Part shown: in pieces, positions 816-6,031 of the stretch
How the letters are laid out: each line of letters opens with the position of its first letter
Numbering within the stretch: position 1 is the first letter of the stretch
The notes under the pieces: generated by a model
Told to the model about the DNA's origin: nothing
The model's database searches: none
Seen by the model: only the letters and a program-made list of their open reading frames with translations
From: Chloroflexota bacterium
GTDB lineage: Bacteria; Chloroflexota; Limnocylindria; Limnocylindrales; CSP1-4
Assembly: GCA_003152165.1 (NCBI GenBank)
Contig: PLZO01000064.1
Span: 1,093 to 42,281 of the forward strand
Length of the DNA: 41,189 bases
Reading direction: 5' to 3'
Position numbers and translations under genes: made by a program

Positions 816-1985
816 GTGAGCGGCGCCGTGACACCGGAACGCGACGAGCGGCCCACGGGCGAGGAGATGCTCGCCCGGGTCAGTGCCGAGGAGCGGGCTG
901 ACCGCGGCCGGTTGCGCCTCTACCTGGGCATGGCTCCGGGCGTCGGCAAGACCTATCGTATGCTCGAGGAAGGCCACCGGCGCCTCGAGCGCGGGACCGA
1001 CGTCGTCGTGGGCTATGTCGAAGTCCACGGTCGGCCACGCACCCAGGCCTTGCTCGACGGTCTCGAGATCGTGCCGCGCGTGCGTGTCGAGTACGAGGGT
1101 GTGAACGTCGAGGAGATGGACACAGCGACGATCATCGCCCGCCATCCGGCGGTGGCCCTCATCGACGAGCTGGCCCACACCAACGTCCCGGGCTCGCCCC
1201 GCGAGAAGCGCTGGCAGGACGTGGAGCTCATCCGCGATGCCGGGATCGAGGTCGTCAGTACCTGCAACGTGCAGCACCTCGAATCCGTGGCCGACGCGGT
1301 GGCCACGATCGTGGGCGCACCGGTGAACGAGCGCCTCCCGGACGCGCTGGTCGAGGGTGCCGACGAGGTCGAGCTGGTCGACATGAGCCCGCATGCCCTG
1401 CGCCAGCGGATCCGCCACGGCAACGTCTACCCGCCTGAGCGCGCTCGAGTGGCGCTCGACCGTTTCTTCACTGAGCCGAACCTGACCGCCCTGCGCGAGC
1501 TGTCGTTGCGCTTTGTCACGCACGCCGTGGATGAGCAGCTGGAGGACATCGTCAGCGAGCGGGGGCTGGGACGAATCCGCCCGGTGAGCGAGCGGGTCCT
1601 GGTGGCGGTCGACGATCGGGCGATCAGCCGTCGCGCGCTGCGTCGCGGGGCCATGCTCGCCACCGCCTTTGGTGCGAGCCTGACCGCGGCCGTCATCGTG
1701 ACGCCGGCCGTGGAGAGGCTAGCCTTCGATCAGGCCCGCGACCTCCAGGAGCACCTCGACTACGCCAACGACCTCGGCGCGCAGATCGTGCAGCATCCAG
1801 CCCGTGACCTGCTGACCGGCCTCGTTGAGCTTGGCAAGGGCTTGCGGATCACCCATGTCGTGCTTGGTCGCGAGACCCGCTCAGGCGTCGTCGGCAGGCT
1901 TGGTCCAAATCTTGCGGACCAGCTCCTGCGGCAGATGCCTGAGATCGAGGTCCACCTCGTCGGCGAAGGTGTCGGCCAGGGCTAG
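816..1985 (+). CDS. kdpD: Short KdpD-like protein: KdpD N-terminal sensor domain plus Usp domain, no TM or histidine-kinase region
   Basis: LYLGMAPGVGKTYRMLEEGHRR (Walker-A type), VVVGYVEVHGRP, IDELAHTNVPGSPREKRWQDVE, STCNVQHLES; GTG start; clean stop at 389 aa. Confidence 0.88.
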   Translation: MSGAVTPERDERPTGEEMLARVSAEERADRGRLRLYLGMAPGVGKTYRMLEEGHRRLERGTDVVVGYVEVHGRPRTQALLDGLEIVPRVRVEYEGVNVEEMDTATIIARHPAVALIDELAHTNVPGSPREKRWQDVELIRDAGIEVVSTCNVQHLESVADAVATIVGAPVNERLPDALVEGADEVELVDMSPHALRQRIRHGNVYPPERARVALDRFFTEPNLTALRELSLRFVTHAVDEQLEDIVSERGLGRIRPVSERVLVAVDDRAISRRALRRGAMLATAFGASLTAAVIVTPAVERLAFDQARDLQEHLDYANDLGAQIVQHPARDLLTGLVELGKGLRITHVVLGRETRSGVVGRLGPNLADQLLRQMPEIEVHLVGEGVGQG

Positions 1986-2165: not shown

Positions 2166-2214
2166 GATGGCCTGACAAGTGCGAACGTGCCGCTGAACTC
2201 GGCGAGGTGGGCCT

Positions 2215-3072
2215 TCAACCGGCGAGCACGGCTCGCGGCGGGCGGCCGGCAGCGCGCAGGGCGACCTCGATGAACGGGCGCAGGCGGGCGGCTACGTCGA
2301 CCTGGGTCCGCCGGAACGCCGCGAGCTTCTCCTCTTCTGTGCCCTCGACCTCCGAAGGATCATCCAGGCCCCAGTGGAGCGAGTTCGACGAGCCCGGAAA
2401 GACTGGGCAAGTCGCCCGCGCCCGGTCGCAGACCGTGATCACGTAGTCGAACTGCTGGTCGAGGAACTCGCCGATCACCTTGCTCCGGGCCTGGCTCCAG
2501 TCGATGCTGAGTTCACCGAGGACCTGGACCGCCAGGGGGTTGACCCTCGTCGCCTCGGTTCCCGCCGAATCGACCTCGAAGTCCGCGCCGCCATAGCGTT
2601 GCAGGAGCGCTTCCGCGATCTGGCTGCGAGCCGAGTTGTGGGTGCACACGAACAGGACCCGGATGGGCGCAGATGGCACGGGACGCTCCTTCCTGCTGGC
2701 TCGGCCGGCCGCGGCGATGGTCATTTCCAGGTCGAGCAGCTCGGCTTCGAGCCGGTCCAGGTCGGCCCGCTGGCGGTCGATGGCGGCACGCTGGCCGGCA
2801 AGGACCGGAGCCAGATCGAGGTCAACCGAGCCGCGCTCGATGCACAGTCGTGCGAGCCGGCCGGCATCCTGTGGGCTCAGCCCGAGCCGGCGCAACGAGA
2901 CAACCAGGCGCAGGCGAGCGAGATCGACTTCCTGGTACTCGCGGTAGCCGTTCTCCTCACGCACTGCCGCCGGGATGACGCCCTCCGTCTCGTACCAGCG
3001 CACGGCCGATGCGGCGATACCAGCACGTCGGGCGAACTCGGCGATCTTCACTTCCGCAGCGTAGGCCTTCAA
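2215..3072 (-). CDS. MerR-family HTH regulator fused to LMW-PTP-type arsenate reductase
   Basis: N-term VKIAEFARRAGIAASAVRWYETEGVI...NGYREY (MerR HTH); C-term IRVLFVCTHNSARSQIAEALL (CX5R), VITVCDRARATCPVFPG, HWGLDDPS (ArsC/LMW phosphatase). Confidence 0.9.
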   Translation of the reverse strand: MKAYAAEVKIAEFARRAGIAASAVRWYETEGVIPAAVREENGYREYQEVDLARLRLVVSLRRLGLSPQDAGRLARLCIERGSVDLDLAPVLAGQRAAIDRQRADLDRLEAELLDLEMTIAAAGRASRKERPVPSAPIRVLFVCTHNSARSQIAEALLQRYGGADFEVDSAGTEATRVNPLAVQVLGELSIDWSQARSKVIGEFLDQQFDYVITVCDRARATCPVFPGSSNSLHWGLDDPSEVEGTEEEKLAAFRRTQVDVAARLRPFIEVALRAAGRPPRAVLAG

Positions 3073-3151
3073 GTCACTCGAAGGTCAAGCCCGATCTTGC
3101 GACGCCAGGCGCGGCCGGCCACTCCGACGGTCGTGCCGGTTCGATCCGTCC

Positions 3152-3961
3152 TTAGCAGCAGCCGCCTGAGCCGCACCCACAACCCGACTCGGCGACGGGC
3201 AATGATCGGGGCGAGAGGTCGATCATGGGCTTGGCGTCGAACGGCTTGCTGGCCTTCACGATTACGCTGACCATCCCGTCGGCGACGCTGTAGGTCGGTG
3301 TGATGGAGATGTCGACGAGGCCGACCGCTTCGAGCCCCCGGCGGAAGTCCGTGACGGACAGCGCGCCGGCGATGCAGCCGACGTACGAGCCACGCTCGGC
3401 CCGCTGCTCGGCGCTGAGGTGATCCTCGCCGACGATGTCGGTGATCCCGATCCGGCCACCCGGCCGCAGCACGCGGGCGATCTCCGCGAAGACGGCCGGC
3501 TTGTCCGCGGCGAGATTGATCACACAGTTACTGATCACCACATCGATGGATTCGGCGGGCAGCGGGATGTCCTCGATGTTGCCCCGAATGAGCTCGACGT
3601 TCGTCGCGCCAGCCTCGGCGATATTTCGCTGGGCCAGGGCGAGCATCTCATCGGTCATGTCCAGGCCGAGCACGCGACCAGTCGGGCCGACCCGTTTCGC
3701 CGAGAGCAGCACATCGATCCCGCCGCCTGAGCCCAGGTCGAGGACCCGCTCGCCGGCGTGCAGGTCGGCGACCGCGATCGGGTTGCCGCAGCCGAGCGAG
3801 GCAAGCACCGCGGCATCGGGCAGCTCGTCGCGCTCGAGCGCGGAGTAGAGCTCGGCGCCGATCGAATCGGAGCTCCCGCTGCAGCAACCACCGTCATTGG
3901 CCTGGGTGGCCGCGGCGGCGTAGCGCGCCCGGACTTCCTCGTGGATCATCTCGGTCGTCAT
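3152..3961 (-). CDS. arsM: Arsenite S-adenosylmethionine methyltransferase
   Basis: VLDLGSGGGIDVLLSAKRVGPTGRVLGLDMTDEML, NVELIRGNIEDIPLP, DVVISNCVINLAADK; Cys pairs CC and C-terminal CGCGSGGCC. Confidence 0.93.
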   Translation of the reverse strand: MTTEMIHEEVRARYAAAATQANDGGCCSGSSDSIGAELYSALERDELPDAAVLASLGCGNPIAVADLHAGERVLDLGSGGGIDVLLSAKRVGPTGRVLGLDMTDEMLALAQRNIAEAGATNVELIRGNIEDIPLPAESIDVVISNCVINLAADKPAVFAEIARVLRPGGRIGITDIVGEDHLSAEQRAERGSYVGCIAGALSVTDFRRGLEAVGLVDISITPTYSVADGMVSVIVKASKPFDAKPMIDLSPRSLPVAESGCGCGSGGCC

Positions 3962-4038
3962 TCGGGCTCTCCTGGACAGGTGCGATAGACCTGATATTGA
4001 TACTTGCCGATATTTGTGTTTGTCAATACCATGGCGTC
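3962..4038. promoter_or_regulatory. Divergent arsM/arsR promoter-operator region
   Basis: Inverted repeat TATTGA (3995-4000)/TCAATA (4023-4028); + strand TTGCCG (4004-4009)-17 bp-TACCAT (4027-4032)-6 nt-ATG of arsR; SD-like CAGGAGAG for arsM on minus strand. Confidence 0.55.
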
Positions 4039-4380
4039 ATGAAGCGCCAGATCGATCCCGATACCCTCCTGCTCCAGGCCGCGGCCGACCCCAGTCGGCT
4101 GGCGATCCTGCGCCAGCTCGCGGCAGGCGATGACGTCTGCGCCTGCGATTTCGTCGGCTGCTGCGACGTCGCCCAGCCCACTGTCAGCCACCACTTGAAG
4201 GTGCTCCGCGAGGCCGGCTGGGTCCGATCCGAGCGCCGCGCCTCATTCATCTACTACCAGCTCCGGCCCGAGGCGGTGGAGCGCTTTCGAGCGATCGCCG
4301 GCGAATTCGCGCCGCGGATCAGCCAGGTCTCGCCACGCACCCTGCTGGTCATCGAGTCCCGAGCCGGGACGCAGGCGTAG
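4039..4380 (+). CDS. arsR: ArsR-family metalloregulatory transcriptional repressor
   Basis: ADPSRLAILRQLAAGDDVCACDFVGCCDVAQPTVSHHLKVLREAGWVRSERRASFIYYQLRPEAV; ArsR winged HTH with Cys motif; start taken at the internal ATG (4039). Confidence 0.92.
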   Translation: MKRQIDPDTLLLQAAADPSRLAILRQLAAGDDVCACDFVGCCDVAQPTVSHHLKVLREAGWVRSERRASFIYYQLRPEAVERFRAIAGEFAPRISQVSPRTLLVIESRAGTQA

Positions 4381-4410: not shown

Positions 4411-5334
4411 GTGTCCTCCCCCACCCTGAGCCGCCGAGACCTGCCGGCGCTGACCCTGGCCGCGGCATCATGGGGCCTGGGAACGGTGGTCAGCAAGCGG
4501 GCCCTGGACGAGATCCCGGCGCTGACCTTGTTGCCAATCCAGCTCGCCGCCAGTCTGGTCGTCCTCGCCGTGCTGATGCGCCGTCGAGGCCTGCCCCTTC
4601 GCGGGAGTCCCGCGATCCTGGGGCGGCTCGGCATCCTGAACCCGGGCCTCGCGTACGCCCTGGGCCTGCTCGGTCTCGGTTCGATCACCGCCAGCCTGGC
4701 GGTCCTGTTATGGGCGGTCGAGCCGCTCATGATCCTGGTGTTGGCGATTTGGTTGCTGCGAGAGCAGGTGGCTCCGGTCGTCGGCGTCCTCTCACTGGTC
4801 GCGGTCGCCGGCCTGGTCCTACTGGTCTACGACCCGAGCACGAACGGCCAATGGGGCGGCGTGGCCCTGGCCCTGGCTGGCGTCGCCTGCTGTGCGACCT
4901 ACACGATCGTGGCCCGGCGCTGGATCGCGGCCTCCGACTCGACCGCCCAGGTGGTCTTCGCCCAGCAGGCGCACTCCCTCGTCTTTGCCCTGCTCGTTGT
5001 CGCCCTCGTCGGCATCCTTGGTGGTGCGGTCCGCCCGATGTCGATCTCGGCCATCGGGCTGCTGAGCGCGATCATCTCAGGGGTTCTGTACTACGCGGCC
5101 GGGTACTGGCTGTACCTGACCGCGCTGCGCGGTGCTCCGGCATCGCTGGCCGCAATCTCGTTCTACCTGATCCCGGTGTTCGGCGTGGCGGGCGGCATCC
5201 TGCTCCTGGGCGAGGGGCTCGACCCCCGGCAATGGGCTGGTGCGGCGATCGTCCTCGTTGCCGTGCTCGTGATCACCTTCAGGCCGAGTGCGAGTCAAAC
5301 GGCCGCCGCGGACCCCGCCCCGTCGGGCCAGTAG
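4411..5334 (+). CDS. EamA/DMT-family permease
   Basis: About 10 hydrophobic segments with duplicated EamA architecture (LTLAAASWGLGTVVSKRAL...; ATYTIVARRW...; ISFYLIPVFGVAGGILLLGE). Confidence 0.88.
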   Translation: MSSPTLSRRDLPALTLAAASWGLGTVVSKRALDEIPALTLLPIQLAASLVVLAVLMRRRGLPLRGSPAILGRLGILNPGLAYALGLLGLGSITASLAVLLWAVEPLMILVLAIWLLREQVAPVVGVLSLVAVAGLVLLVYDPSTNGQWGGVALALAGVACCATYTIVARRWIAASDSTAQVVFAQQAHSLVFALLVVALVGILGGAVRPMSISAIGLLSAIISGVLYYAAGYWLYLTALRGAPASLAAISFYLIPVFGVAGGILLLGEGLDPRQWAGAAIVLVAVLVITFRPSASQTAAADPAPSGQ

Positions 5335-5353
5335 CCTCACCGGGCAACTACTT

Positions 5354-5398
5354 GGAACGAATGTCGCCGGCAGACGCACTACGCCCGGGATTCGTCCC
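5354..5398. repeat. 45-bp inverted-repeat-ended element (copy 2)
   Basis: GGAACGAATGTCGCCGGCAGACGCACTACGCCCGGGATTCGTCCC; about 40/45 identity with 2121-2165. Confidence 0.8.
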
Positions 5399-5487
5399 GT
5401 CGGCCCGGTTCCGGGACGCTGCGGACCGCGACTCACGCACGAACTGAGCGTGGCGGACCGCCCGGACCCACGATTCGGCCGGGCTTG

Positions 5488-5518
5488 GGCGTAGTGCGTC
5501 TGGTGGCGACATTCGTCC
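5488..5518 (-). repeat. Partial inverted copy 3 of the 45-bp element
   Basis: Reverse complement GGACGAATGTCGCCACCAGACGCACTACGCCC; lacks the ATTCGTCCC end; head-to-head with copy 2. Confidence 0.75.
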
Positions 5519-5851
5519 GAACTCCGGGGCGCTGAGCGGGTTGACGGGAGTCGGGAGGGGAGGGTCTGGAGTGTCCGGAAACCGGCACCGCGAAAACGGG
5601 ATGGACTATGGACTACAGGGGTGTCGATATGGACCATGCGTTCCCGGACAAGCCTCCGGGAAGTGGCGGGCCTGAAGGCTTTGCCTTGCCTGCGCGGTAG
5701 GCCGGTGGCGGGTTTGCGGGCCTCCGAGCCCATGGACCCTATCCGGTCAAGGTGGCTGATCCCCCGGTGTCCCGTTGCTCTGAGCCAATGGACTCCATCC
5801 GGCCGACGACCGTGGGCATGGATGCCTGGTGGGCAGGGAATGCCCCAAGCA

Positions 5852-6031
5852 AACGGCTTCTCAAAGAAGGTCGAGAACCACGCGGCGGCGATCAGCCTGC
5901 ATTTCTTCTACATGAACTGGGGTCGGCCCCACAAGAGCCTCGCCAACCCGTACCCGCGAACCCCCGCTATGGCCGCGGGCCTGAGCGACCACCTGTGGAC
6001 GTGCGAGGAGATTGCGGAGTTTCTGGACTAA
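5852..6031 (+). pseudogene. C-terminal remnant of an IS transposase/DDE integrase
   Basis: NGFSKKVENHAAAISLHFFYMNWGRPHKSLANPYPRTPAMAAGLSDHLWTCEEIAEFL resembles the C-termini of IS transposases (..NGFSKKxENH..H..YNF.R.HK.L..TPAMAAG..); no upstream catalytic region in frame. Confidence 0.8.

Follow-up and report, generated by a model that had tools for sequence, protein, structure and literature searches.

A MerR regulator fused to an arsenate reductase domain in Limnocylindrales: a candidate autoregulated, TipA-like arsenic resistance gene

The usual switch of ars operons is the ArsR repressor, which senses arsenite, the product of the arsenate reductase ArsC. ArsC is often joined to other ars functions, as in Acr3-ArsC (M. 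tuberculosis), AqpS-ArsC (Salinispora), and ArsN-ArsC, and ArsR-ArsC fusions are known from L. ferriphilum, Microbacterium, and Sinorhizobium (PMC6205960). A different pairing is found in ArsR-M of Brevundimonas sp. M20, an arsenic regulator fused to an arsenite methyltransferase, which binds its own promoter (PMC10190100). TipA (TipAL/TipAS) of Streptomyces lividans is a minimal autoregulated resistance gene, in which two start codons yield a regulator and a neutraliser (PMC7762955). For a fusion of a MerR regulator to ArsC, we found no description in the open-licence papers searched, and "arsen" occurs nowhere in the text of a review of the MerR family (PMC9909328).

The window analysed here is a stretch of 41,189 nucleotides from a Chloroflexota bacterium (Limnocylindrales; assembly GCA_003152165.1, contig PLZO01000064.1), whose draft genome consists of 177 contigs and is 92% complete. 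At 2215-3072 on the minus strand, the ORF list and Pfam matches show one uninterrupted frame, in which the DNA-binding half of a MerR protein is joined to a full-length ArsC of the thioredoxin type. An earlier sequence-only reading had reported a MerR-like HTH and a complete ArsC in this ORF, which Pfam confirms, and had counted 285 residues from position 3072. We moved the start: it is almost certainly GTG 3051-3049, which gives 278 residues, rather than TTG 3072, because this TTG lies within the spacer of the promoter, and in-frame stop codons separate the two positions in four homologues (L011-L013, L019). Residues are numbered from GTG 3051 in the following, and Pfam ranges from TTG 3072. 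The parts of the gene are:

2215..3051, minus strand: MerR-ArsC fusion gene, 278 aa from GTG 3051, with Pfam MerR_1 and LMWPc matches and 45 homologous ORFs
2700..3051, minus strand: MerR half, a winged HTH followed by a long putative dimerisation helix (model residues 78-120), from Pfam, AlphaFold2, and a Foldseek match to CueR (4wls)
2218..2679, minus strand: ArsC domain, at the same time the span of a predicted free ArsC of 154 aa that starts at GTG 2679-2677, from conserved residues, similarity to 8p5n, and a junction start with a Shine-Dalgarno stretch

The N-terminus carries the winged HTH of MerR-family regulators, with matches to Pfam MerR_1 (residues 9-74; 52.7 bits, cut-off 21.6) and Pfam MerR (45.1 bits, cut-off 28.2), and the C-terminal half matches LMWPc (residues 139-260; 64.6 bits, cut-off 23.2). 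This is the single LMWPc gene of the window genome. An AlphaFold2 model built from 43 aligned fusions (pLDDT 86.5, pTM 0.70) shows two folded halves connected through one long helix plus a short linker; the helix (residues 78-120) follows the HTH and, in the model, would serve dimerisation. The ArsC half contains the P-loop Cys-x5-Arg and two redox cysteines seven residues apart. Cys136, Arg142, and Cys215 are present in all 43 aligned fusions and Cys208 in 42 of them, and Asp231 is likewise conserved. Its closest solved structure according to Foldseek is ArsC2 of D. indicus (8p5n), and its best NCBIfam family is pI258-type ArsC (TIGR02691; 125.1 bits over 127 of 129 positions), where the score lies under the equivalog cut-off of 174.3, so that we call it pI258-like and not a certified equivalog. 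With pI258-class enzymes (S. aureus, B. subtilis, D. indicus ArsC2), which are free-standing, it shares the P-loop C-T-x-N-S-x-R and two resolving cysteines seven residues apart, and it is predicted to reduce arsenate with thioredoxin.

Compared with the known systems, the fusion resembles TipA in its MerR HTH and coiled coil, its putative C-terminal ligand domain, its two candidate starts within one gene, which would yield a full-length regulator and a free C-terminal domain, and its predicted autoregulation. It is no member of the TipA class, since the TipAS domain (PF07739) is absent from its Pfam matches: its C-terminal domain is a predicted arsenate reductase instead of the TipAS drug-binding fold and would convert its substrate, which TipA sequesters. 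By analogy, TipA is nevertheless the nearest working model. ArsR-ArsC fusions likewise join an N-terminal regulator HTH to ArsC in an ars operon setting, but their HTH is that of the ArsR repressor, so that a different promoter logic is expected for the MerR-type protein. We also found ArsR-ArsC fusions with HTH_20/HTH_5 domains on plasmids of Bosea (WP_149134523; L203, NZ_CP042333.1) and Tistrella (WP_014747562; L204); both adjoin arsJ/GAPDH genes and represent an independent regulator-ArsC fusion. ArsR-M combines an arsenic regulator and an arsenic enzyme from other families. The partners of ArsC in Acr3-ArsC, AqpS-ArsC, and ArsN-ArsC are transporters or an acetyltransferase and, unlike the MerR half, no DNA-binding domain; they tie ArsC to ars functions much as ACR3 and MIP genes follow the fusion in some relatives. 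With CueR, MerR, and CadR, the protein shares the HTH, the coiled coil, and a dyad in a 19-bp spacer, but it lacks the metal-binding cysteines at the helix start and the metal loop, and carries ArsC instead.

The fusion is a family-wide feature. Among 107 genomes of the window's own family, we counted 45 fusion ORFs in which both halves are present and the start could be located; they are spread over 43 genomes from 13 genera and are 55-95% identical; two additional fusions are cut by contig ends and stand outside this count. Matches through both halves were absent outside this family (Chloroflexota, Limnocylindrales) in a 400-genome sample of the phylum, and a search of 72,556 plasmid records, at a coverage of 80%, gave no MerR-ArsC fusion either. 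When genome contigs were scanned with the MerR half, ArsC followed MerR in at least 27 loci among the 80 matches listed, all of them Chloroflexi MAGs; the named relatives among the matches listed were Chloroflexi MAGs, one labelled Candidatus Limnocylindrales. Both halves are under purifying selection (dN/dS mostly 0.05-0.5), and dN/dS of the linker is near or above 1 in many pairs. One copy (G357a) has an internal stop, and its genome holds a second, intact copy. Several lineages (G424b, G431, G235, and G187) have lost the MerR half and carry ArsR or another gene upstream of ArsC instead. The evidence is sequence-based throughout and comes largely from draft MAGs. The tree was built by a quick method and many of its branches are weak, so that we used it solely to show that unfused G424b, G431, G187, and G049c42 nest among the fusions; where G235 belongs is uncertain.

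Directly upstream of the fusion gene lies a predicted promoter with the features of MerR-regulated genes:

3083..3088, minus strand: -35 element TTGACC, conserved in homologues
3066..3084, minus strand: predicted operator dyad CCTTCGAG-TGA-CTTGAAGG, 19 bp, inside the 19-bp spacer that separates -35 from -10 and reaching the -35 element
3058..3063, minus strand: -10 element TACGCT, followed by the start codon 6 nt later

The same block, CTTGACCTTC-R-AG-N3-CT-Y-GAAGG-TnTAnnnT, immediately precedes 41 of the 45 fusions and comprises the -35 element, a 19-bp spacer with the dyad, and the -10 element; the dyad consensus CCTTCRAG-N3-CTYGAAGG lies between TTGACC and TAnnnT. The canonical spacer of MerR promoters measures 19-20 bp (PMC9909328). 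In the alignment at the gene, these 31 nt hold 1.55 bits per base, compared with 0.27 in the preceding 25 nt. The distance from the -10 element to the start codon is 6 nt in 37 cases and 7 nt in 4; the start codon thus sits where transcription should begin, and the mRNA is predicted to be leaderless. The dyad is expected by chance 0 times in the window, and the genome contains exactly one such site, with no second at one mismatch.

The sequence-only reading had proposed a second regulator beside ArsR in this cassette, and the protein does look like one, since its own predicted MerR-type operator precedes its own gene. The DNA-binding targets suggested at that time fit less well: 3962-4038, the arsR/arsM intergenic region, contains no match to the operator, and 3073-3151 overlaps part of the dyad at 3066-3084 but does not hold the whole of it. 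That reading did not contain the predicted leaderless promoter, the predicted internal start giving free ArsC, or the conservation across the family.

In other genomes, the site precedes a separate ACR3 gene in two relatives, L122 (genome G426) and, with one mismatch, L121 (G306), and the unfused MerR of a Dehalococcoidia MAG (L150) has the same operator as the fusions. An operator-like site at G339:C17 precedes no ars gene. Sites in G402:C46, G243, G466, and G155 have other half-sites (TTCCAG, TTGGAG) and were putatively assigned to other regulators. At L116/L117 (G313:C40, C42), the operator and an ATG are followed by the last ArsC codons alone and then by MIP; here an internal deletion of a fusion copy has apparently left the promoter driving MIP.

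A second candidate start lies at the junction of the two domains:

2686..2694, minus strand: internal Shine-Dalgarno stretch AGGAAGGAG, 6 nt before GTG 2679, with a similar stretch at this place in homologues
2677..2679, minus strand: internal in-frame start GTG at the domain junction, ATG or GTG in 43 of 45 fusions

It is ATG in 30 fusions, GTG in 13, and missing in two (G211 and G404a), so that it is not essential everywhere, and it stands 9-12 codons before the catalytic cysteine. Pairing with the anti-Shine-Dalgarno sequence has a median of -8.1 kcal/mol here, versus -2.7 at other in-frame ATG or GTG codons of the same genes. All 13 valine codons at this position are GTG, while GTG makes up 34% of valine codons otherwise, and on the quick tree with its many weak branches at least five changes between ATG and GTG are needed. 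The linker in which this codon lies is the part whose dN/dS is near or above 1 in many pairs. A synonymous-codon test of the Shine-Dalgarno stretch had little power gene by gene (median p 0.32), and its combined value (Stouffer z -6.1) comes from related sequences; the test is weak because the local amino acids (Lys-Glu, Glu-Glu) already yield Shine-Dalgarno-like codons. The lineages without the MerR half retain the ArsC start together with a Shine-Dalgarno-like stretch, and a scrap of the coiled coil may remain before ArsC in three of them (G424b, G431, G235). As far as genomes can tell, this retention is the best natural evidence that the junction start works, and free ArsC is probably made alongside the fusion.

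The fusion gene belongs to an ars cassette with the following neighbours:

3152..3961, minus strand: arsM, arsenite methyltransferase, upstream of the fusion on the same strand (NCBIfam PRK11873 above cut-off)
4039..4380, plus strand: arsR, ArsR/SmtB repressor, divergent from arsM (NCBIfam HTH_metalloreg above cut-off)
2174..2218, minus strand: truncated MIP/aquaporin gene, the first ~15 codons, overlapping the fusion stop (TTGA) and adjoining a palindromic repeat

The gene caller gives arsR a product of 113 aa, and its longest ORF opens at 3997. The truncated MIP gene encodes LKAHLAEFSGTFALV, which matches the start of an intact MIP at the same place in a close relative (G453). In other members of the family, ACR3 follows the fusion directly in seven cases and MIP in five, and four of these ACR3 genes, like every one of the five MIP genes, overlap the fusion stop by 4 nt. 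ArsR, ArsM, ACR3, ArsP, or MIP is nearby in 39 of 51 loci, and a small thioredoxin gene in 14 of 51. No ACR3 was found in the window's own 92%-complete genome and the adjoining MIP is truncated, so that in this strain the regulon may consist of nothing but the fusion gene, and the disposal of arsenite may fall to ArsM or to unassembled genes.

The cassette is bounded by a palindromic repeat (2118-2172, 5351-5405 on the plus strand, and 5484-5521 on the minus strand; the direct copies are 87% alike), of which the genome holds these three copies and no others at up to 3 mismatches, and which may delimit a mobile cassette. An EamA-type transporter (4411-5334, plus strand) adjoins arsR, and a relative with 65% identity follows an unfused MerR in G469 (L112), hinting that it acts in the same stress. 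At 5850-6031 (plus strand), a C-terminal stretch (HFFYMNWGRPHKSL...) resembles an IS transposase by eye, with no Pfam match, and is possibly an IS scrap at the cassette edge. On the other side, convergent with the fusion and after kdpC, lies a gene for a KdpD-like protein without the kinase half (816-1985, plus strand), whose best NCBIfam family is KdpD_non_kinase, below cut-off.

To approach the question of the sensor, the MerR half can be compared with its unfused relatives, which occur in the same family and in the Dehalococcoidia MAG mentioned above. These proteins (L150, L148/L113, L112, and L154) carry extra cysteines, with two where the dimerisation helix begins and more Cys near the C-terminus, and L150 and L154 have a Cys-rich C-terminal tail or cluster. 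In the fusions, Cys70 is the sole cysteine of the MerR half (40 of 43), the cysteine pattern of metal-sensing MerR proteins at the dimerisation-helix start and in a C-terminal metal loop is lacking, and ArsC occupies the position of the tail. Most simply, ArsC would have replaced the sensor. Since it stands where the unfused relatives bear a Cys-bearing sensor tail, ArsC itself is the probable sensor and the best reading of the pattern. The earlier proposal of a sensing catalytic domain is partly supported by the position of ArsC in the protein, from which sensing is inferred.

Several other explanations have to be weighed against this reading. That two genes were joined by a missed stop or an assembly error, as might be feared in a 177-contig draft, has a negligible probability: 44 further copies, nearly all in other draft genomes, conserve the fused frame and both halves are under purifying selection, which rules out the missing stop or frameshift that the sequence-only reading had named as a possible undoing, along with a wide earlier description of this architecture, of which the papers searched gave no sign. 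Unlikely, though the most serious of the competitors, is sensing by the MerR half: arsenite would bind to Cys70, perhaps shared with the Cys70 of the partner subunit, and ArsC would be just a tethered, co-regulated enzyme. Cys70 could take part in arsenite sensing, given that it is present in 40 of 43 fusions and in the unfused relatives too, and ACR3, part of the regulon in some relatives, disposes of arsenite and not of arsenate. However, the relatives' second cysteine near the helix start and their C-terminal cysteine are gone from all fusions, so that the usual two- or three-thiol site is impossible from the MerR half of one subunit, and three fusions lack even Cys70.

This last point also weakens a mixed sensor, in which arsenite made by ArsC is captured between Cys70 and the catalytic cysteines and the protein reports its own turnover. 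The one conserved cysteine of the MerR half and the three of ArsC could form an As(III) site, and an arsenic-bound structure of ArsC is known for the closest solved relative (PMC10483234), but the available model is a monomer with a pTM of 0.70, and we regard this arrangement as improbable. HiNmlR is a known MerR regulator without a sensor domain. It is among the structural matches found by Foldseek, and together with the several lineages that exchanged the MerR half for ArsR or another upstream gene it would fit a fusion of mere convenience, a constitutive autorepressor or decaying regulator attached to ArsC that senses no ligand. Against this, slightly less credible still than the mixed sensor, stand the purifying selection on the MerR half, the operator kept in 41 of 45 fusions, and the occurrence of the site before ACR3 as well. 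More specific than ArsC sensing as such, and put forward tentatively, is a MerR activator switched by the turnover state of its fused ArsC, with feedback closed by excess free enzyme from the internal start, all in one leaderless gene.

With ArsC as the preferred sensor, the fusion and its conservation, the promoter and its unique operator, the junction start with its Shine-Dalgarno stretch, the loss of metal-site cysteines, and the ars context suggest how DNA binding, activation, a sensed state, and the production of both proteins might be connected. In the established mechanism, a MerR regulator keeps its promoter off until a signal makes it distort the DNA by twisting, which switches transcription on. 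The full-length protein would be translated from a leaderless mRNA at GTG 3051, dimerise via the MerR coiled coil, and occupy the dyad in its own promoter, whose spacer of 19 bp is over-long and which it would keep silent and then activate by this mechanism. The signal would most likely come from the ArsC domain, which stands where relatives have a metal-sensing tail, as bound arsenate, a Cys-As intermediate, or the turnover disulfide Cys208-Cys215. A second ribosome start at GTG 2679 would supply free ArsC from the same message, which would reduce arsenate in bulk and so remove the signal. In relatives, the same operator would drive arsenite disposal by ACR3 or MIP, either downstream or in trans; for action in trans, sites before a separate ACR3 were found in just two genomes. 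We give slightly better than even chances to this entire scheme, in which one TipA-like gene encodes regulator and enzyme for arsenic, controls itself, takes its signal from ArsC, and also supplies free ArsC.

With an arsenate reductase attached, a MerR regulator could respond directly to arsenate or to the reduction of arsenate. If this is true, it would be a second logic in arsenic resistance and could serve as a compact building block of arsenate biosensors, and it would suggest that the TipA design of a regulator and a neutraliser from one gene with two starts has arisen more than once, here with an enzyme. In these bacteria, the sensing, switching, and detoxifying of arsenic would then seem to be packed into a single gene.
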